Shown piece after piece: positions 20,069 to 29,313 of a DNA stretch of 64,000 nt. This DNA comes from Streptomyces sp. Je 1-369 (lineage in GTDB: Bacteria > Actinomycetota > Actinomycetes > Streptomycetales > Streptomycetaceae). Made by a program: the position numbers and the translations under genes. Location: positions 4,059,254 to 4,123,253 of the forward strand of contig NZ_CP101750.1 of assembly GCF_026810505.1 (NCBI RefSeq), written 5' to 3'. Every line of letters begins with the position of its first letter. Within the stretch, counting starts at the first letter, position 1. The notes beneath the pieces were generated by a model that was not told the origin of the DNA, ran no database searches, and saw nothing but the letters and a program-made list of their open reading frames with translations.

Positions 20069-20104
20069 GTGCCCCGCGCGATGTCAGGTTGTCGCGCGGG
20101 GCAC
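20069..20104. terminator. hairpin terminator after phoU
   Basis: GTGCCCCGCGCGA and TCGCGCGGGGCAC form a perfect 13-bp stem with a 10-nt loop between the convergent phoU and Cys-rich peptide genes. Confidence 0.82.
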
Positions 20105-20132
20105 GACGCTGTCCGGCCGCGGTGTCAGCGGG

Positions 20133-20258
20133 TCAACCGCAGCCGCCGCCGCACTGGCAGGAACCGCCCGACTGGCAGCCGCAGCTGCACCCCGGGCCGC
20201 ATCCGCAGGACGCCAGCGGGACTTCGGGAACGTGTATGCGCGTGGGGGACTCTGCCAT
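20133..20258 (-). CDS. 41-aa cysteine-rich (metallothionein-like) peptide
   Basis: A very small protein of 41 residues. The first 17 (MAESPTRIHVPEVPLAS) contain no cysteine; the last 24 hold eight cysteines in CGCG, CSCGC and CQCG groupings with only Gly, Ser, Gln and Pro between them. Such density of CxC pairs is typical of metal-thiolate clusters, so zinc or copper binding is a reasonable inference; a short N-terminal leader followed by a Cys/Ser/Gly core also leaves a modified peptide possible. ATG 20258 has a near-perfect GGAGGAG site with correct spacing, the strongest evidence that it is real. It is convergent with phoU and divergent from the HNH gene. Confidence 0.78.
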   Translation of the reverse strand: MAESPTRIHVPEVPLASCGCGPGCSCGCQSGGSCQCGGGCG

Positions 20259-20410
20259 GGTCTCCTCCTCGTAGGCGTACGACGTACTGCCTGTTTCCCA
20301 TTCCATGCCCACGGGGACGGGGCGCATCAACGGCGCACGCGTGCGCGGGCATGCCGGGATCTTTGCTGGAACCCGCGTGCGACACGGCGGGCACGCGCGA
20401 ACATCCCCTC

Positions 20411-21523
20411 ATGCCCAAGAAGAAACAACGAAGCAGGAAGAGCCAGAAGGCGAGTACCGGCAGACGCCCGTCCCGCCCGTCCCGCCCGTCCCGCCCGTCC
20501 CGCCCGTCCCGCCCGGCCGGGCCGGCCGGCCCGGCCGGCGAGAAGGCGATCCTGCTGTGCCACGACATGGCGGTGTACGAGAACTTCGAACGCTGCGCCC
20601 GGCGCATCTTCGAGGTCCTCCGGAACGCGGAAGACCGGATGCCCGGCAAGCCCCGTCACCTCTTCCTCAAGGTGCAGGGCCACCGCAACGACGCCGGCGG
20701 CTACGACCGCGACGCCATCGAGATCATCCGGGAGTTCGGCATGGGGTACCTGCTCCCGTACCTGACGGAGCTGACGACGCCGTTCCACAGGCTCGGGAAC
20801 CCCGACGGGCAGCGCGACGACGTGCCGGACGAACTGCGGATCGCGTACCCCGAGGACGCTGGGTCGGATGCGGGCTTCTGGTACGACGTGAATCTCCTCC
20901 CGCTGCGCCCGCGCGGGACGACGGAGAACGCGAGGAAGACGCCGCCGAAGCTCGCGGCGATAGCCGACTACCTGGGGATGGACCCGGCGTGCCTGATCTG
21001 CTGGGGCACCCCGGTCGACCGGGCGCACGCCGTGCCGACGTCGCTCGGCGGCTCGATGGACGTCCGTAACTTCGCCCTGCTCTGCCCGGACCACCACCGC
21101 CAGGCACCCGACATCGCCGACGCGGAGGCGTTCTGGGCGTGGGTGGACTACGCGGAGATCAGGGACTCGGGCAGCAAGTGGAACGGGGCGGCGCCGGAGG
21201 TCCAGGAGTGGGTGCGCGCGCACGGCGGCAGGACGGAGCCGAAGGACCGCGGGGACATGGAGTTCCTGGCCGCCGTACGGTTCGAGCTCCAGCACCTGTA
21301 CGGCTGGGCCGACGCGGACTTCGAGAACATGTCCTGGGACCTTCTCCAGGAGTACCACCAGGTCCTGGAGGCGGCGACGGGCAAACACTTCGGCGTGGAG
21401 AAGAAGGTCGCCACGCACGCGTGGGCGTACCACATCGCGAGGCGCCGCCTGGCGAAGCGCAGGGGCGAGACGGGCCCCATGCCGTCCGACCACCCGTGGA
21501 CGGGAATCTGGCCGGTCCCCTGA
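20411..21523 (+). CDS. HNH-endonuclease-like protein with (RPS)n N-terminal tail
   Basis: A 370-residue protein. The first ~45 residues are basic and repetitive: KKKQRSRKSQKASTGR, then RPS about five times and PAG repeats. A large unrecognised domain follows (AILLCHDMAVYENFERC..., KPRHLFLKVQGHRNDAGGYDRD). A zinc-finger HNH-like module is at ~195-235: CLIC, then RAHAVPTSLGGSMDVRNFALLCPDHHRQ, with the CxxC...C-x2-HH layout of HNH nucleases. The C-terminal ~120 residues look helical. It may be a nuclease acting on DNA, but no restriction or toxin partner is next to it. The repetitive tail could bind nucleic acid. The function is not established. Confidence 0.75.
   Translation: MPKKKQRSRKSQKASTGRRPSRPSRPSRPSRPSRPAGPAGPAGEKAILLCHDMAVYENFERCARRIFEVLRNAEDRMPGKPRHLFLKVQGHRNDAGGYDRDAIEIIREFGMGYLLPYLTELTTPFHRLGNPDGQRDDVPDELRIAYPEDAGSDAGFWYDVNLLPLRPRGTTENARKTPPKLAAIADYLGMDPACLICWGTPVDRAHAVPTSLGGSMDVRNFALLCPDHHRQAPDIADAEAFWAWVDYAEIRDSGSKWNGAAPEVQEWVRAHGGRTEPKDRGDMEFLAAVRFELQHLYGWADADFENMSWDLLQEYHQVLEAATGKHFGVEKKVATHAWAYHIARRRLAKRRGETGPMPSDHPWTGIWPVP
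20467..20511. repeat. 9-bp coding tandem repeat (RPS)5
   Basis: Five perfect copies of CCCGTCCCG inside the HNH-like gene, followed by GGCCGGCCC-type repeats. Perfect copies suggest recent slippage and copy-number variation in frame. Confidence 0.85.
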
Positions 21524-21942: not shown

Positions 21943-22467
21943 CTACGGGCTCTCGCCGAGGTCCTTGACCATGACCGCGTACACCGGTGAATCGGCGAAC
22001 GGCTGCTGCTCGCCGACTCTGGCGTAACCCCATATCTCGTAGAGCGCCTGCACCTTGGGGTGCGTGACGTCGACCAGCAGCACGGCGATGTCTTCGGTGC
22101 GTTCCTCAACCAGCGCCTCGTGCAGTCGATCGGCGATCCCCCGCTTGCGCCAAGCCGGGCGCACCATCACCTCGGACACGGCGTAGGTGGAGGAGCAGTT
22201 GTCGCTCGGCTTGTAGGGGGTTGAGCGCCACCACTCCCGGCCCGGTACGAGCGGAGCGCCGTAGGCGAAGCCGGCCGGTTCATCTCCCTCGTACGCCACC
22301 ACACAGGAGAAGCCGTCCATGGCGGTCCAGTGGTCGACGAACCAGGCGAAGCGCTGGTGGAAAGGGTCATCCATCTGGTCGGCGTAGGCGTCGGTGTGGA
22401 CGTCGATGAGCATCTGCCGGAAGCCTTCGGGGAGGCTTCCGCGCTGGAAGTGCTTCAGGTCGGTCAC
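21943..22467 (-). CDS. GNAT N-acetyltransferase coupled to the XRE regulator
   Basis: A 174-residue GNAT-family protein with acetyl-CoA loop RPAWRKRGIADRLHEALVEER and the C-terminal VQALYEIWGYARVG. Start GTG 22467 overlaps the XRE regulator stop as GTGA, giving tight translational coupling, so the two proteins are likely used together. It sits at the edge of the graspetide operon, divergent from it. It could acetylate a product or be unrelated; nothing in the sequence decides. Confidence 0.8.
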   Translation of the reverse strand: MTDLKHFQRGSLPEGFRQMLIDVHTDAYADQMDDPFHQRFAWFVDHWTAMDGFSCVVAYEGDEPAGFAYGAPLVPGREWWRSTPYKPSDNCSSTYAVSEVMVRPAWRKRGIADRLHEALVEERTEDIAVLLVDVTHPKVQALYEIWGYARVGEQQPFADSPVYAVMVKDLGESP

Positions 22468-23717
22468 GCCCGGCTCCATTCGGTCCGCATGCGGTCTGCC
22501 CAGTCTCGTGCGTAGGAAGTGGAAGGGGCCATGACGAACAGGCTTCGGTGGAAGTCGCCCATGAGAGTACGCATACGGCCGGGCATCGGGTCCCCACTCA
22601 TGATCGTGAAAACGTCGTTGGCCGAGGCTGTGGCCTGTTCGGCCTCGCCCTGGTGGAGTTGCGCCAGGGCAAGCTGGGCGGTCGCGAGGGCCCGGTTGCG
22701 CCGGAACGCGGCCGGGATCCTGGCCAGGGCGTGGTGCGCCATCGCTTCGGCTTGAGGGTGGCGTCCGGTGTTGTACTGCACGACTGCGGCGAGGTGGTCG
22801 AGTTCGGCCCGTCCGTAGAAAGCCGTCCAACGTGGTCGCTCGTGTTCCGCCGCCTTCGTGAAGGTGTCCTGGGCCGATCCCAGTGAGCGCAGGCCCGCAC
22901 GGCCGTCACCCAGCGCTGCGTAGGCCAGAGCGACACGGACCCGGCCCAGCGAACCGAAGAACGGATCGCGACGCGCTGCGGAGGAGGCTTGTGCGGCCTG
23001 AGCTGCCGCGAGTGCGTCGGGCCAGTTTTGCCGCTGGTAGGCGAGCATCGAAAGGTTGACCCACACCCGCATCGCTGTAAGGGCGTCTTGCGAAAGTCCG
23101 GCGTACGTCGCCGCTTCGTTCAGGTAGCCCTGGGCCCGGTCGAGGTTGCGGGCGTCGATGCAGGACCACGCGGCGATGGTGGTGTACTCGGCAGCCAGTG
23201 CGTACAACGACCGGCGGACGCGTTCGCCGGCGTTGCGCTGCTGGAGTTCCAGGACCCTGTTGCGTCCCCGGGCGGCGGCCGTTTCCAGTTCCACGTGTCC
23301 GCCCTGGCGGTCGTCAGCGTCGACGAGGGCGCCCATACCGGCGGCGACTCGGGCCACGTCAGGCATACCGACTGTCCGGCGCTGGGCCACCATGGGTATG
23401 GCGGCAGCCGCGCTCCCGGTTGTCGAGGCGAGGAAAGAGCGACGCCGCACGCGGGCCTCCTGCGAATGCTGCATGGTGCGTGGTGCGCTGAACCCCAAAT
23501 CCTCGACGGGGCAACCGAACACGCGCTCCAGGGCTGCACACGTGCGTCCGATCGGGCGTCTGGTGACGCCATTCAGCAGATTGCGGATCGAGCGGTCGGA
23601 TACGTCACCGGGCCTGCCGGTGATCTCTGCCAGCGCAGAGTTCATCCGACCGGCCAATTCTTCCTGGGTGAGCCCGAGTTCCTCCATCCGGCGTTTGAGG
23701 ACGGCGTTCACTGCCAT
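22464..23717 (-). CDS. XRE-type regulator with TPR-like C-terminal region
   Basis: A 417-residue regulator. The N-terminal helix-turn-helix spans about residues 5-75 (KRRMEELGLTQEELAGRMN...DVSDRSIRNLLNG), followed by RRRSFLASTTGSAAAAIPM, a TAT-like stretch common at this place in this family, and an alpha-helical repeat region to the end (ALAAEYTTIAAW..., LSMLAYQRQNWPDALAAAQAAQ). The layout is typical of streptomycete XRE/TPR regulators that sit beside small peptide and antimicrobial loci. It faces the ATPase-precursor-ATP-grasp operon across 250 bp, so it is the best candidate for its regulator. Confidence 0.82.
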   Translation of the reverse strand: MAVNAVLKRRMEELGLTQEELAGRMNSALAEITGRPGDVSDRSIRNLLNGVTRRPIGRTCAALERVFGCPVEDLGFSAPRTMQHSQEARVRRRSFLASTTGSAAAAIPMVAQRRTVGMPDVARVAAGMGALVDADDRQGGHVELETAAARGRNRVLELQQRNAGERVRRSLYALAAEYTTIAAWSCIDARNLDRAQGYLNEAATYAGLSQDALTAMRVWVNLSMLAYQRQNWPDALAAAQAAQASSAARRDPFFGSLGRVRVALAYAALGDGRAGLRSLGSAQDTFTKAAEHERPRWTAFYGRAELDHLAAVVQYNTGRHPQAEAMAHHALARIPAAFRRNRALATAQLALAQLHQGEAEQATASANDVFTIMSGDPMPGRMRTLMGDFHRSLFVMAPSTSYARDWADRMRTEWSRA

Positions 23718-23967: not shown

Positions 23968-24378
23968 GTGACGACAACCGACGCCGACCCAAGCACGACC
24001 GATGCTCCGGGCTTCAGCGAGACGGTGCCGTGCGAGCCGGAATCCGCACGCCGTGCACGCCTGCTTGTCTGCGCAGCTCTGGACACGTGGGACATAGGCG
24101 AGTTGGCCGAGTCAGGCGCGCTGATTGTTTCCGAGCTGATCAGTAATGCCGTCAGCCACACGCGATGTCGCGTGATTCGTGTGGTGGTTCAGCGCGAGAC
24201 GGCCGAAGTCATCCGGATCGGCGTGGCCGACAAGGGCCGGGGCACTCCCGAACCGGGTTGGCCGGACGACCGTTCCGAGGGTGGCCGTGGCCTACTCCTC
24301 GTGCAGTCGCTGAGCTGGCGGTGGGGCTACGACCTGCACCACAGGGGGAAGCTCGTCTGGGCCGAGCTGCGGCTGTAG
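23968..24378 (+). CDS. RsbW-like ATP-binding protein (putative anti-sigma factor)
   Basis: A 136-residue GHKL ATPase-fold protein of the streptomycete RsbW-like class. Motifs are the N-box ESGALIVSELISNAVSHT and the G-boxes VADKGRGTPEPG and GGRGLLLVQSLSWRWGYD, with the WGY ending seen in the family. GTG 23968 has GGAGGGA 8 nt upstream; an open frame extends to 23788 but with unrelated residues. It is the first gene of the putative graspetide operon, 51 bp before the precursor. It may act as a protein kinase/anti-sigma switch or as an accessory; its partner is not visible. Confidence 0.85.
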   Translation: MTTTDADPSTTDAPGFSETVPCEPESARRARLLVCAALDTWDIGELAESGALIVSELISNAVSHTRCRVIRVVVQRETAEVIRIGVADKGRGTPEPGWPDDRSEGGRGLLLVQSLSWRWGYDLHHRGKLVWAELRL

Positions 24379-24429
24379 ACCGCATGCCGATAGTGCGCCG
24401 GACCAAGACATCCGACAGGAGGGAAGACC

Positions 24430-24732
24430 GTGTTCAACCACATGGATCGCTTTCCCACAGGCAGTCCGCTGCCCCAGGGACAACTGACCGCAACCCCATG
24501 GGGCCTACGTCGCATCGCCCCCTACCCGCCCACAGAGGAGGCCGCCTACGCGACAGTGAAACTGGACCCGGAGACACAGACCGCCCGGTACTTCGATACC
24601 TCCGGGGCACCCACCATGGCCCCGGGCCACGGCACGTCCTCCGGCACGAACCCCGCGACCGGCACCACGGGCCAGGGCGACCGCAACAGCGACTCCCCGG
24701 ACAGCGACACAGGGAACGACACCGACCAGTGA
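24430..24732 (+). CDS. tgmA: graspetide precursor peptide
   Basis: A 100-residue precursor of the ATP-grasp-modified RiPP family. The leader contains TATPWGLRRIAPYP and KLDPETQTARYFD, the conserved segments of the actinobacterial ATP-grasp target family. The last ~42 residues (from GAPTMAPGHG) form the likely core: eight Thr, five Ser and six Asp but no Lys or Glu, so only ester (Ser/Thr to Asp) links are possible. GTG 24430 has GGAGGG with good spacing; ATG 24442 is the alternative. Its stop overlaps the GTG of the ATP-grasp gene. Ring pattern cannot be assigned from sequence. Confidence 0.88.
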   Translation: MFNHMDRFPTGSPLPQGQLTATPWGLRRIAPYPPTEEAAYATVKLDPETQTARYFDTSGAPTMAPGHGTSSGTNPATGTTGQGDRNSDSPDSDTGNDTDQ

Positions 24733-25703
24733 CTCCGGTGACGCATGACGATCGCCCGGTCCTGGTCATCACCAATCTCGACGACCCGACCGCGGACTTC
24801 GTGATCGCCGAACTGCACGGCCGGGGTGTACCGGTCGTGCGGTTCGACTCCGGCGACTTCCCCGCCACCCTGTCGTGTTCGGTCGCGATCGGCGGCACCG
24901 ACAGGTGGTGGCAGGGAAGCCTGGAGACCCCGAGCCGCCGTGCCGACGTGAGCGCCGTACGTTCTGTGTACTACCGGCGCCCCGCTGGATTCGCCTTCCC
25001 CCACCTCGACAAGCAGGACGAGCGGTTCGCTGTGGCACAGGCGCGTTACGGGCTCGGCGGCATCCTGACCTCTCTGCCTCACTGCCTGTACGTCAACCAT
25101 CCGAACCGCATCGGCGATGCCGAGTACAAGCCGGCCGGGCTCGCGGCAGCGGCGGCGTGCGGCTTCATGGTTCCGCCCACGATGATCACGAACGTTCCCG
25201 ACGACGCACGATTCTTCATCGAGGAGTGCGGCGCGGTCATCTTCAAGCCGATCGCGGTCCCGCTCTACGTGGTCGACGGCCGGGCTCAGACCGTCTCCGT
25301 GACGGAGGTGACCGCCGACCAGATCGACCATTCGGTGTCCGGCACCATGCACCTTTTCCAGAAACGGGTGGACAAGATCGCCGACATCCGGGCGACGGTG
25401 ATCGGCGGGCAGACCTTCGCGGTACGCATCGACTCCGGCCTCCTCGACTGGCGTACGGATTACGGCACGCACACGTACACGCCGCTTGCCACGCCACCCG
25501 CGGTCGAACAGTCAATGCGCGCCTATCTGCAGCACTTCGGACTCGTCTTCGGTGCGTTCGACTTCGCCCTGACCGAACGCGGGGAGTGGATCTTCATCGA
25601 GTGCAACCCTTCCGGACAGTGGGCATGGATGGAACCACCGACCGGCCTGCCCATGACTGCCGCACTCGCGGACCTCTTGGAAGGAGGACTCCGTGGCCGA
25701 TGA
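24729..25703 (+). CDS. tgmB: ATP-grasp ribosomal peptide maturase (omega-ester ligase)
   Basis: A 324-residue ATP-grasp ligase that activates Asp/Glu side chains as acyl-phosphates and joins them to Ser/Thr hydroxyls of the precursor. The pre-ATP-grasp domain begins PVLVITNLDDPTADFVIAEL; the central ATP-binding part has VIFKPIAVPLYVVDG; the C-terminal catalytic segment includes GAFDFALTERGEWIFIECNPSGQW, with metal-binding E and N in ECNPSG. The start GTG 24729 overlaps the precursor stop (GTGA); a second GTG lies 9 nt on. The methyltransferase gene overlaps its last 11 nt. Confidence 0.9.
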   Translation: MTPVTHDDRPVLVITNLDDPTADFVIAELHGRGVPVVRFDSGDFPATLSCSVAIGGTDRWWQGSLETPSRRADVSAVRSVYYRRPAGFAFPHLDKQDERFAVAQARYGLGGILTSLPHCLYVNHPNRIGDAEYKPAGLAAAAACGFMVPPTMITNVPDDARFFIEECGAVIFKPIAVPLYVVDGRAQTVSVTEVTADQIDHSVSGTMHLFQKRVDKIADIRATVIGGQTFAVRIDSGLLDWRTDYGTHTYTPLATPPAVEQSMRAYLQHFGLVFGAFDFALTERGEWIFIECNPSGQWAWMEPPTGLPMTAALADLLEGGLRGR

Positions 25704-26880
25704 GATCGACGTCGAGACGGTCGCGGCCGATCTCCGACGCAGGCTCGCCCGACAACTGGCGACGGACGGACGGCTGCACTCACCGCAGTGGCGGGCCGCG
25801 GTGGAAGCCGTGCCCCGCCATGCATTTCTCCCCCACTTCTACCGGGAGAGTGATGCCCCCGGCGTCACCACCTGGGAACCGGTCATGCCGGAGACAACCG
25901 GCAAGGCGAAGTGGCTCGGGCTCGTCTACAGCGACGAGACATGGGTGACCCAGTTCAACGGCCATGACATCGACTGGGCCGACCCGCAACCGATCAGCAA
26001 CGCGACCCCGACGTCTTCATCGACCATGCCGAGCCTCGTAGTGCGGATGCTCGAAGACTTGGGCGTGCAGGACGGCATGAAGGTGCTGGAGATCGGCACC
26101 GGAACCGGCTATTCGACAGCGCTGCTGTGCCACCGGCTCGGCAGCGGAAGCGTGACCTCGATCGAGACGGATGACGGCGTGGCCCGACGAGCCCGGCAAG
26201 CGCTCACCGGCTCCGGTCACTTCCCCGATGTGCTGGTGGGGGACGGCCGCGTAGGCCACGCCGACGGAGCCCCGTACGACCGGCTGATCGCCACGTGCGG
26301 GTTCCGTGGCATCCCGCCCTTCTGGCTGGAACAGGTCCGGCCGGGCGGTGTCATCGTCACCACCCTCCGTGGCTGGATGCGCTCTCTCGGCCTGGTCAAA
26401 CTCATCGTCACCGATGAGAGCGCGAGCGGCTGGTTCAGCGACGGCGACCCCAGCTTCATGATCGCCCGCCAACAGGACGCACCGACGAGCCTTGGCATGC
26501 TGCCCGGCCTCGACGACGGGACGGCACGTAAAGCGGCATACGGGCCAGAGATCCTGTCCCGCTCCGGGCCGGCCTTCATGGCACAGCTCGCGGCACCGGA
26601 CGCCCGGTTCTTCTCGACAGCGATCGACGGCGGCCCAGTCAGTACGTTCGTGCTGGACAGCATCACCCAGTCGTTCGCCGTCCTCGCCCCCACGGAGAGC
26701 GGTTGGCAGGTCCGCCAGGGCGGTACTCGCCGTCTGTGGGACGCGATCGAGTCGGCGGCGGCTACCTGGGAGGAGCACGGCTCACCGAGCACGGGGGCGT
26801 TCGGCGTAACGGTCTCCCGCGATCAGCAGACCGTCTGGCTCGGAAACCCAAACGGCCCGCAGTGGGCGCTGTCCTCCTGA
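25693..26880 (+). CDS. tgmC: PIMT-like methyltransferase of the ATP-grasp peptide system
   Basis: A 395-residue protein with a protein-L-isoaspartate O-methyltransferase core: SAM-binding motif I VLEIGTGTGYSTALLCHRLG near residue 120 and motif II SIETDDGVARRARQAL, followed by a long C-terminal region (RQDAPTSLGMLPG..., QTVWLGNPNGPQW) specific to the graspetide-associated subfamily. In characterised relatives the enzyme methylates an Asp of the cross-linked precursor, which then closes to an aspartimide. GTG 25693 has AAGGAGGA and overlaps tgmB. It ends the operon; a long hairpin lies just beyond. Confidence 0.88.
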   Translation: MADEIDVETVAADLRRRLARQLATDGRLHSPQWRAAVEAVPRHAFLPHFYRESDAPGVTTWEPVMPETTGKAKWLGLVYSDETWVTQFNGHDIDWADPQPISNATPTSSSTMPSLVVRMLEDLGVQDGMKVLEIGTGTGYSTALLCHRLGSGSVTSIETDDGVARRARQALTGSGHFPDVLVGDGRVGHADGAPYDRLIATCGFRGIPPFWLEQVRPGGVIVTTLRGWMRSLGLVKLIVTDESASGWFSDGDPSFMIARQQDAPTSLGMLPGLDDGTARKAAYGPEILSRSGPAFMAQLAAPDARFFSTAIDGGPVSTFVLDSITQSFAVLAPTESGWQVRQGGTRRLWDAIESAAATWEEHGSPSTGAFGVTVSRDQQTVWLGNPNGPQWALSS

Positions 26881-26967: not shown

Positions 26968-27729
26968 CTACTTCTTCTTGCCCTGGTTCTTGACCGCCTC
27001 GATCGCCGCCTTCGCGGCCTCCGGGTCGAGGTAGGTGCCGCCCGGGTTCAGGGGCTTGAAGTCGGCGTCCAGCTCGTACGAGAGCGGGATGCCCGTGGGG
27101 ATGTTCAGGCCCGCGATGTCGGCGTCGGAGATGCCGTCCAGGTGCTTGACCAGGGCGCGGAGGCTGTTGCCGTGGGCGGCGACCAGGACCGTCCTGCCCG
27201 TCAGGAGGTCGGGGACGATGCCGTCGAACCAGTACGGGAGCATGCGGACGACGACGTCCTTCAGGCACTCCGTCTGGGGGCGCAGCTCCGGGGGGAGCGT
27301 GGCGTAGCGCGGGTCCGAGAACTGGGAGTACTCCGCGTCGCGGTCGAGCGCCGGCGGCGGGGTGTCGTACGAGCGGCGCCACAGCATGAACTGCTCCTCG
27401 CCGAACTCGGCGAGCGTCTGGGCCTTGTCCTTGCCCTGGAGGGCGCCGTAGTGGCGCTCGTTCAGGCGCCAGCTGCGGTGGACCGGGATCCAGTGGCGGT
27501 CAGCCGATTCGAGGGCGAGCTGGGCGGTGCGGATAGCTCGCTTCTGGAGCGACGTGTGGACCACGTCGGGGAGCAGGCCGGCGTCCTTGAGCAGCTCACC
27601 GCCGCGGACCGCCTCCTTCTCGCCCTTCTCGTTGAGGTTGACGTCCACCCAGCCGGTGAACAGGTTCTTCGCGTTCCATTCGCTCTCGCCGTGGCGGAGG
27701 AGGATCAGCTTGTACGGTGCGTCGGCCAT
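26968..27729 (-). CDS. gpmA: 2,3-bisphosphoglycerate-dependent phosphoglycerate mutase
   Basis: A 253-residue glycolytic/gluconeogenic mutase interconverting 3- and 2-phosphoglycerate. The catalytic histidine is in [12 protein letters not shown] near residue 13, ETLAF-type acid appears as ERHYGALQG, and the second histidine in [17 protein letters not shown]. The Lys-rich tail KNQGKKK is normal for the actinobacterial enzyme. TACGCT lies 7 nt upstream of the ATG and AGAGG could also serve as a ribosome site. Monocistronic. Confidence 0.96.
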
Positions 27730-27957
27730 GCCTCTGAGCGTAATCGAACCCCAGGGCGCCCCGCGCGCGCGGACGAGGGGTGGGATGGAGGGGCCGGGCG
27801 GGGAGGTGGGGGTGGCCGTGCCGTGCTGGTCGGGACGGGACGGGACAGTTGACGGGGGTTGTCAATTGAGTGGCGGGGTCGGGTGAGCGGCTCGTAATTT
27901 GTGCGTGCCGCCAGAGCCACTTACGCCTCTGCCGCTTGCACCTCCGGGGGGACTTCC

Positions 27958-29313
27958 ATGCCGTACGCCACCAAAGGACGAATGAGACGCGCCGTCAGCG
28001 AGAGCGTCTCCGGGCTGCCCCGCGCCTTCTGGTGGCTGTGGATCAGCACCCTGGTCAACCGGCTCGGCGCCTTCGTCGCCACCTTCATGGCGCTGTATCT
28101 GACCCTTGAGCGCGGCTACTCCGCCTCGTACGCCGGGCTCGTCGCCGCCCTGCACGGGCTCGGCGGCGTCGTGTCCTCGCTCGGTGCGGGCGTGATGACC
28201 GACCGGCTCGGGCGGCGGCCCACGCTGCTGATCGCGCAGGCCTCCACGGCCGTGTCGGTGGCCGTTCTCGGGTTCATGGAGCACCCCGTCGCCATCGCGG
28301 GCGTCGCCTTCCTCGTCGGCATGGCGAGCAACGCGTCCCGGCCCGCCGTGCAGGCGATGATGGCGGACATCGTGCGCCCGGAGGACCGGGTGCGCGCCTT
28401 CTCCTTGAACTATTGGGCCATCAATCTCGGGTTCGCGATCTCGTCCGCGGGTGCCGGGTTCATCGCCTCTTACAGCTATCGGGCCGGGTTCCTGATCGAG
28501 GCCGCCATGACGATGGTCTGCGCCATCGTCGTCTTCGCCAAGCTTCCGGAGTCGCGGCCCGTGCGGACGGAGGTGGAGAAGGCCGCCGAGCCGGTGGTGG
28601 GGCTCGGGACCGTGCTGCGGGACGGGCGGTTCATGGGTGTGGTCGGGCTGAGCTTTGTCGTCGCGCTGATCTTCCAGCAGGGGTCCGTGGGGCTGCCCGT
28701 CGCGATGGGCGAGGCGGGGTTCACGCCCGCCGACTACGGGCTCGCCATCGCCGTGAACGGCGTGCTCATCGTCGTCATGCAGATCCCCGTCACCCGCTAC
28801 ATCGAGCACCGCGATCCGCGCCGGCTGCTCGTGATCTCCTCGGTCGTCGCCGGGTACGGCTTCGGGCTCACCGCGTTCGCCGGGTCGCTCGGCGTCTTCG
28901 CCCTGACGGTGTGCGTGTGGACGCTCGCCGAGATCGTCAACGCGCCGACCCAGACGGGTCTTGTCGTCCGCCTGTCCCCTGTTCATGGACGCGGGCGGTA
29001 CCAGGGCATGTACACGATGTCCTGGTCCGTGGCCGCGCTGGTCGCTCCCCTGATGTCCGGCTTCATGATCGACCGGTTCGGTGCGGAGTGGCTGTGGGGC
29101 ACGTGTGCGGTGCTCGGGACGGGGGCCGCGCTGGGGTACTGGGGGCTGATGCGGGGGCTGCCCGAGGAGGGGGCGGGGGCGGAGACCCCCGGGGAGGTCG
29201 CTCCGGGTGGGGTGGCCCCGGGCGTCGCGGATGCTCCCGGTGCCGTCGAGGTCACTGTCGCGGCAGAAGCCGTCGCGCCTCGTGCAGATTCCGTGGCCGC
29301 ACCGCGCACGTAG
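27958..29313 (+). CDS. MFS transporter
   Basis: A 451-residue major facilitator with about twelve membrane helices, probably a proton-driven exporter. The family motif A appears as GAGVMTDRLGRRPTLL between helices 2 and 3 and again near YIEHRDPRRLLV. ATG 27958 was chosen for GGGGGA just upstream and the basic start MPYATKGRMRR before the first helix. The C-terminal ~50 residues are a Gly/Ala/Val/Pro-rich cytoplasmic tail. The substrate is unknown; the gene stands alone. Confidence 0.88.
   Translation: MPYATKGRMRRAVSESVSGLPRAFWWLWISTLVNRLGAFVATFMALYLTLERGYSASYAGLVAALHGLGGVVSSLGAGVMTDRLGRRPTLLIAQASTAVSVAVLGFMEHPVAIAGVAFLVGMASNASRPAVQAMMADIVRPEDRVRAFSLNYWAINLGFAISSAGAGFIASYSYRAGFLIEAAMTMVCAIVVFAKLPESRPVRTEVEKAAEPVVGLGTVLRDGRFMGVVGLSFVVALIFQQGSVGLPVAMGEAGFTPADYGLAIAVNGVLIVVMQIPVTRYIEHRDPRRLLVISSVVAGYGFGLTAFAGSLGVFALTVCVWTLAEIVNAPTQTGLVVRLSPVHGRGRYQGMYTMSWSVAALVAPLMSGFMIDRFGAEWLWGTCAVLGTGAALGYWGLMRGLPEEGAGAETPGEVAPGGVAPGVADAPGAVEVTVAAEAVAPRADSVAAPRT

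Follow-up and report, generated by a model that had tools for sequence, protein, structure and literature searches.

A group 13 graspetide locus in Streptomyces sp. Je 1-369 with a predicted five-ester core and an Asp-Arg loop

We analyzed a 64,000-nucleotide stretch (the window) of the single-contig, 8.82-Mb genome of Streptomyces sp. Je 1-369, which carries genes for a ribosomally made graspetide at positions 23968-26880. This locus probably makes a group 13 graspetide, or graspimiditide, in which five nested esters, the outermost on the C-terminus of the precursor, form before an aspartimide is installed in the loop. Between 1,326 and 1,432 graspimiditide clusters and four characterised products are in print; the products carry two to five esters and a loop aspartimide formed after cross-linking, and their methyltransferases have the motif WXXXGXP in an extra domain (PMC13001092).

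The cluster and its predicted product

Four open reading frames (ORFs) lie in tandem on the + strand and encode an HATPase, a precursor, an ATP-grasp ligase and a PIMT-like methyltransferase, as an initial annotation made from the sequence had described. The HATPase and precursor genes are 51 nt apart, the precursor and ligase genes 5 nt apart, and the ligase and methyltransferase genes overlap by 11 nt. Precursor, ligase and methyltransferase each score above the curated cut-offs of an NCBIfam trio built for one system (TIGR04186, TIGR04187 and TIGR04188), which puts the annotation's call of a graspetide cluster with a PIMT methyltransferase far beyond chance. The features are:

23968..24378, + strand: HATPase_c_2 (RsbW/anti-sigma-like ATPase), a probable regulator; PF13581, 48.2 bits against a cut-off of 27.4
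24430..24732, + strand: precursor peptide of 100 residues, GTG start after AGGAGG; TIGR04186, 7.7e-21, 74 bits against 25; PF14408, 48.8 against 25
24496..24513, + strand: leader motif PWGLRR, residues 23-28; in an 18-row alignment P23 is invariant and W24 conserved in at least 90%
24562..24579, + strand: leader motif LDPETQ, residues 45-50; D46 and Q50 invariant in the 18 rows
24634..24666, + strand: donor strand, residues 69-79, with predicted donors T69, S71, T73, T77 and T79; Pro75 is an empty rung
24667..24699, + strand: loop TGQGDRNSDSP, residues 80-90, with the predicted aspartimide site Asp84 (24679-24681) followed by Arg85, and with Asp88 and Thr80
24700..24729, + strand: acceptor strand DSDTGNDTDQ, residues 91-100, with predicted acceptors D91, D93, D97, D99 and the C-terminal carboxylate of Q100
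24738..25703, + strand: graspetide synthetase (ATP-grasp ligase), GTG start, 321 residues; TIGR04187, 1.1e-125, 419 bits against 350
25693..26880, + strand: PIMT/PAMT-type O-methyltransferase with an extra C-terminal region, 395 residues; TIGR04188, 1.4e-129, 432.6 bits against 380

Both leader segments named by the initial annotation are present in the precursor. PWGLRR is a possible recognition element for the ligase, comparable to the RPFG of the fuscimiditide leader, which has that role (PMC13003496). Recounting the last 42 residues, the core, gave the composition first reported: 13 hydroxyl residues (8 Thr and 5 Ser), 6 Asp, and neither Lys nor Glu. Purifying selection on the core is strong: over the last 36 residues, synonymous codon changes relative to 13 relatives number 3-13 and non-synonymous ones 0-2. 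The tail of the core, NSDSPDSDTGNDTDQ, had been called unusual for its alternation of Asp and Ser, but is the conserved acceptor strand of the precursor family: among 188 distinct cores, 136 have DQ at their end, and 135 of these carry the four Asp as well. These 188 cores came from 259 candidates, after one fusion protein (P0109) was dropped and two cores were re-anchored before class counts; no core anchor could be set in two further candidates (P0040 and L087). The survey behind them, in which one search took in 120 of 748 matching proteins, is biased toward the window. In P0109, from Streptomyces sp. SID5476, the precursor leader runs straight into the C-terminus of a tyrosine recombinase, which suggests that a graspetide precursor gene was altered there by an insertion or a deletion.

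By sequence and by Foldseek, the two enzymes are closest to graspetide macrocyclases and PIMTs. Solved relatives of the ligase found by sequence (9bou, 5ig8, 7m4s, 5ig9, 7mgv and 7drm) are the graspetide ligases PruB (9bou), MdnB/MdnC (MdnC being 5ig9), AMdnB, CdnC and PsnB (7drm). The structural model of the ligase is weak (mean predicted local distance difference test score, pLDDT, of 68.3, with residues 290-321 below 50), and its fold matches, with template modeling (TM) scores below 0.5, add little to those by sequence. The methyltransferase model has a pLDDT of 89.7. Its sequence contains WEEHGSP, an instance of WXXXGXP, and EIGTGTG, the S-adenosylmethionine motif; WXXXGXP was present in 26 of 29 methyltransferase sequences scanned. 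The best match of the model in the PDB is 1dl5 (386 columns, root-mean-square deviation 7.6, TM 0.50/0.61), the PIMT of T. maritima with its C-terminal extension (PMC13001092). A PDB search for chains like fuscimiditide or amycolimiditide, with the precursor, core peptides and a profile, returned nothing or two chance matches.

We infer all of the chemistry, and the initial annotation's ester formation with an aspartimide after cross-linking is what this type of system would be expected to do. The ligase would bind the leader and phosphorylate carboxylates of the C-terminal strand. Attack by Ser/Thr of the N-terminal strand would then give nested esters T79-D91, T77-D93, T73-D97, S71-D99 and T69 with the C-terminal carboxylate of Q100, for a total mass change of about -90 Da. 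The methyltransferase would recognise the cross-linked stem-loop and methylate Asp84 in the loop, the methyl ester would collapse onto the amide of Arg85 to form the aspartimide, and partial hydrolysis to isoaspartate (isoAsp) may follow. A protease would remove the leader.

A mirror register for the two strands

The ring pattern comes from a fixed pairing of the two strands. We numbered the donor side from a conserved His (H67, index 0), set the register on the window's class, and then applied it to other classes anchored on their last Asp. In the 135-core class to which the window belongs, hydroxyl residues occupy donor indices 2, 4, 6, 10 and 12 in 99-100% of cores, and Pro is found at index 8 in 136 of 136. 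On the acceptor side (in the window, the strand listed above), Asp stands at indices 0, 2, 6 and 8, Gly at 4, and the C-terminus lies where index 10 would be. The two lists mirror each other, with donor and acceptor indices summing to 12.

We slid the acceptor strand against the donor strand in all 188 cores. With no shift (slide 0), 886 of 895 acceptors lay opposite Ser/Thr, compared with 397, 281, 543 and 224 at slides -4 to -1 and 358, 561, 231 and 475 at +1 to +4. Cores matched at every acceptor numbered 179 of 188 at slide 0, none at any of the four negative slides, and 1, 14, 0 and 24 at +1 to +4. For the window's class, slide 0 placed 674 of 675 acceptors opposite Ser/Thr and matched 134 of 135 cores in full, while no core was fully matched at any other slide. 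The remaining classes use other acceptor subsets (D...D.D...D, D...D...D.D and D.D.....D.D).

Covariation between donors and acceptors points the same way for three rungs, by Fisher tests that ignore relatedness. At rung (8,4), the donor was a hydroxyl residue in 42 cores and another residue in none when the acceptor was present, compared with 7 and 139 when it was absent (5e-35). The corresponding counts were 172 and 1 against 6 and 9 for rung (6,6) (7e-11), and 153 and 0 against 21 and 14 for rung (4,8) (5e-12). In the 15 cores lacking acceptor 6, donor 6 was Thr in 6, Gly in 4, Val in 3, Arg in 1 and Gln in 1; in the 35 cores lacking acceptor 8, donor 4 was Ser in 20, Lys in 10, Arg in 3, Thr in 1 and Val in 1. 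On a tree of 227 leaders, these three rungs underwent five double-sided changes in the same direction, each on one branch, while 11 off-register controls showed none, two of which (those with acceptor 10) could not change.

Several observations weigh against the register and the rings read from it. Rung (10,2) showed no covariation (146 and 4 with the acceptor present, 37 and 1 with it absent). Thr10 is kept in 37 of 38 cores without acceptor 2, so conserved hydroxyls without a partner exist; likewise, Thr persists at donor 6 in 6 of 15 cores without acceptor 6, and Ser/Thr at donor 4 in 21 of 35 without acceptor 8. On the leader tree, the single branch shared by the two sides of rung (10,2) changed in opposite directions, and one control coincided. 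Each rung has 2-6 acceptor changes on a weak tree built from short leaders, and the covariation counts are not independent events. The register was also picked on the window's class before its use on the others, and 9 of the 895 acceptors misfit, four of them from a single class whose donor index 10 is Pro. The fuscimiditide ligase ThfB formed no third ester inside an existing stem and none for adjacent pairs (PMC12291112).

The 27-core DQG class adds a further difficulty, since it fits two slides: at +4, 105 acceptors out of 108 fit and 24 of the 27 cores are matched in full, and at slide 0 the figures are 108 of 108 and 27 of 27. A MAFFT alignment put this class in a different register, and the fit at +4 shows that this was no slip. 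This class therefore does not fix the register. We favour slide 0: at +4, Thr2 and Thr8 are unpaired despite full conservation, and a loop Ser-Asp ring between residues three apart is needed; slide 0, for its part, leaves the conserved Thr10 of this class without a partner.

The case for the register is strong in the window's class and suggestive in the others, and together with the covariation the register supports a nested stem-loop topology. For the window it predicts the five rings listed in the pathway above. The more general proposal, one fixed register with six possible rungs of which each class uses a subset (in the window five, the outermost on its own C-terminus, with an Asp-Arg aspartimide), is one that we hold tentatively; we had judged it evenly poised, and the second register of the DQG class took it slightly below that.

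The aspartimide site and the number of rings

The first loop Asp of the 136 DQ cores is followed by Gly in 104, Arg in 23, Thr in 4, Ser in 4 and Ala in 1. The loop of the window has Asp84-Arg85 in place of the Asp-Gly-Asn of the class typified by SsfA (SsfA(BM) of Streptomyces sp. F-3). Asp-Arg favours aspartimide formation less than Asp-Gly does, which counts against a modification here. Even so, we expect the aspartimide at Asp84, which is homologous in position to the loop Asp of other classes. In SsfA, the modified residue is Asp81 (followed by Gly82 and Asn83), which is changed only in the fully cyclised peptide and then occurs partly as isoAsp and partly as Asp (PMC10787088). That the likely site is Asp-Arg instead of Asp-Gly had been overlooked in the initial annotation. 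All four characterised graspimiditides have Gly after the modified Asp; motif analysis places Arg among the possible residues at this n+1 position (PMC13001092), so the Asp-Arg subclass was already foreseen in print. The literature we searched, much of it available in part, yielded no experimental test of an Asp-Arg site. We compared 29 of 30 methyltransferase sequences (that of L014 was omitted, being split), and in a comparison of 18 with 9 sequences no column separated Asp-Arg from Asp-Gly clusters by our criterion.

All 23 Asp-Arg cores have a second Asp three residues before the acceptor strand and a Thr just after the donor strand, which in the window are Asp88 and Thr80. Among the 136 DQ cores, this Thr and this Asp occur together in 28, both are missing from 107, and the Thr occurs alone in 1. 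The pair could reflect the true methylation site, a sixth ester or mere shared ancestry.

That Asp88, followed by Ser (or, in relatives, Ala or Thr), is methylated rather than Asp84 is the least improbable of the alternatives we considered, although we think it unlikely. Its constancy in the Asp-Arg cores would fit, as would the listing of Ser and Thr among possible n+1 residues (PMC13001092). However, it is Asp84 whose distance from the donor strand equals that of the Asp-Gly in the GNPSDG class, and one relative (P0052, loop TGRNDGEV) keeps Asp-Gly at that distance without the second Asp.

The co-occurrence also allows a sixth ester, T80-D88, to be added in the Asp-Arg subclass, which would leave a final loop of seven residues around Asp84-Arg85, close to the loops of 8-10 residues in the SPDG class. 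We regard this as improbable: the pair is off register, summing to 10 rather than 12, and T80 adjoins T79, an arrangement of immediately adjacent cross-links that ThfB does not close (PMC12291112). The co-occurrence may instead be the common descent of one clade.

We give equally little weight to a product of the same system with four Ser/Thr-Asp esters and a free C-terminus. The four stem Asp would suffice for it, amycolimiditide has four nested esters (PMC13003496), and the ester between a side chain and the C-terminus of SsfA is called postulated in the review (PMC13001092). However, when the window's class is anchored on its last Asp rather than on the C-terminus, the acceptors that fit fall from 678 of 679 to 407 of 543, with an acceptor facing the invariant Pro75. 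In two Kribbella relatives (L027 and L028), the precursor ends in D-x-D-x-G-x-D-x-D-R-D, with an Asp in place of the window's C-terminus. SsfA loses 90 Da with its ligase and takes up as many as five methanols; tandem mass spectrometry put the ring-forming carboxylates in its last 12 residues, which hold only four Asp, so esterification of the C-terminus was inferred, although the ring connectivity was not obtained (PMC10787088). Since the register also needs the C-terminal carboxylate, restricting the cross-links to Ser/Thr-Asp esters, as stated earlier, is probably incorrect where the outermost ring is concerned.

Neighbourhood, distribution and known relatives

Four neighbouring genes flank the cluster:

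22464..23717, - strand: NsdA-family regulator with tetratricopeptide repeats and a helix-turn-helix, divergent, possibly regulating the cluster; NF053720, 295.7 bits against 75
21943-22830, - strand: GNAT acetyltransferase, upstream
26968-29313, region of phosphoglyceromutase and major facilitator superfamily (MFS) genes: phosphoglyceromutase, - strand, downstream of the cluster
27901-29313, + strand: MFS transporter, past the phosphoglyceromutase

We examined 29 related loci, 27 named as Streptomyces and 2 as Kribbella, with up to 4 kb of flank each. The order precursor-ligase-methyltransferase is kept in 28; the exception, L029, has a ligase fragment and a methyltransferase but no precursor. 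The ligase is split by the assembly in L023, L025 and L026, and the methyltransferase in L006 and L014. Behind one cluster (L011), the methyltransferase matched twice and the ligase a second time, in part.

An HATPase homologue precedes the cluster in 14 of the 29 loci (1e-10); histidine-kinase-like ATPases are listed as a companion family of actinobacterial ATP-grasp loci (PMC8939145). GNAT homologues occur in the flanks of 14 and NsdA in those of 15; by strength, upstream NsdA-family matches are strong (8e-221 or better) in 11 loci and weaker in 6 more. Phosphoglyceromutase, MFS, YbjN and PhoU genes were found in the flanks of none of the 29. Thus, in its nearest relatives the cluster is accompanied by the upstream block but by none of the downstream neighbours, and the downstream junction of the window differs from that of the relatives examined.

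The cluster had been called complete, which is true in a relative sense: no protease was found among the neighbouring ORFs searched, which were part of those in the window, and a gene of 12 of the 29 loci is absent. That gene, of about 115-120 codons, lies between the HATPase and precursor genes, where the window has only positions 24379-24429. In L001 it fills a 477-nt gap (L001:3206-3571, about 120 codons), and this copy matched no Pfam family. A search for it elsewhere in the window's own genome gave no match at E 0.001, an empty answer that proves little. Two other ORFs of the window lie apart from the cluster. One, at 20136-20258 (- strand), follows an AGGAGG site and encodes a Cys-rich peptide of 41 residues (CGCGPGCSCGCQSGGSCQCGGGCG) that has no Pfam match and by eye looks metallothionein-like. 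The other, at 20069-21523 (+ strand), has PSR repeats and a GPAGPAGPAG stretch before a weak HNH_2 match below the cut-off.

Clusters of this kind are common in and around Streptomyces. TIGR04186 matched in 214 of 295 genomes drawn from the host genus (E 0.001), above the cut-off in 211; among 150 drawn from the family, the precursor profile matched in 56, across 11 of 17 genera; and among 396 drawn from the phylum, the 11 that matched at 1e-6 were all from the host genus. In the window's own genome, no precursor but that of the window exceeds the TIGR04186 cut-off. Outside the window, at about 4044-4047 kb (contig G000:C1, locus L031), the same genome holds a decayed second group 13 locus with a DUF5753 helix-turn-helix gene. 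What remains is the C-terminal part of an ATP-grasp ligase (about 65 residues, 46% identical to the window's) and a methyltransferase ORF of 385 residues (32%). Two small neighbouring ORFs look DUF397-like.

It is very unlikely that the window's cluster is itself silent or decaying and yields no mature peptide: the decayed second locus and the missing 115-120-codon gene, the latter a weak negative, would fit such a fate, but the reading frames are intact, the core is under purifying selection as described above, and the precursors of SsfA and amycolimiditide were cross-linked in E. coli by their ligases alone (PMC10787088, PMC13003496). Linking these peptides to functions is named an open challenge in a 2026 review; after a suggestion made there, our working guess for the window's peptide is an electrophilic trap for a target protein (PMC13001092).

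The initial annotation was a sound observation of a known kind whose novelty was over-rated; the cluster as such is one more in a crowded, well-mined family. What the register adds is a predicted residue-by-residue connectivity, including an unusual ester between a side chain and the C-terminus, where the five-ester relative SsfA resisted assignment. The Asp-Arg subclass bears on the capacity of the methyltransferase to bring about an aspartimide where the site is less favourable and, if our assignment is right, would provide the first characterised graspetide site outside Asp-Gly.

Among known systems, microviridin- and plesiocin-type graspetides have ATP-grasp ligases homologous to the window's (MdnC, PsnB) and are not known to come with a PIMT. 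Unlike the window's predicted product, they have interlocked or repeated short-loop topologies, with amides in the microviridins (PMC12291112). Fuscimiditide (ThfA/B/M), compared here by its description, resembles the window in its mirror-spaced rungs, T3-D22 and T7-D18, and in an aspartimide within a loop of 10 residues, but has two esters and Gly after the modified Asp (PMC12291112). Glu was not accepted there in place of Asp, and a third ester formed once another pair was placed two residues outside the existing ones (PMC12291112); this work agrees with the mirror register. Amycolimiditide (AmdA/B/M), likewise compared by description, shares with the window a precursor, an ATP-grasp ligase and a PIMT, nested stem-loop esters and a loop aspartimide, and differs in having four esters, 29 residues and Gly after the modified Asp (PMC13003496, PMC13001092).

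The closest parallel is probably SsfA. The strands of the SsfA-type five-ester class, the donor T-x-[ST]-G-T-x-P-x-T-x-T and the acceptor D-x-D-x-G-x-D-x-D-Q-COOH, are both present in the window. SsfA and the window probably belong to one class, judging by the residue facts printed for SsfA: 97 residues, a GluC fragment 63-97, G77-T78, D81-G82-N83, S89, and four Asp and no Glu in the last 12 (PMC10787088). With these facts as a filter, 23 precursors remained of the 167 fetched, and their strand layout is that of the window, although index 6 is Ile in one of them (P0093). Five esters would be expected in both SsfA and the window. The two differ in the loop, which has 11 residues with Asp-Arg and a second Asp in the window and 9 residues, SPDGN.., in the 23 fitting precursors. 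The type of the cluster, group 13, is known, and the ring pattern, which had been called undescribed, is probably of the SsfA type, which has been described by mass.

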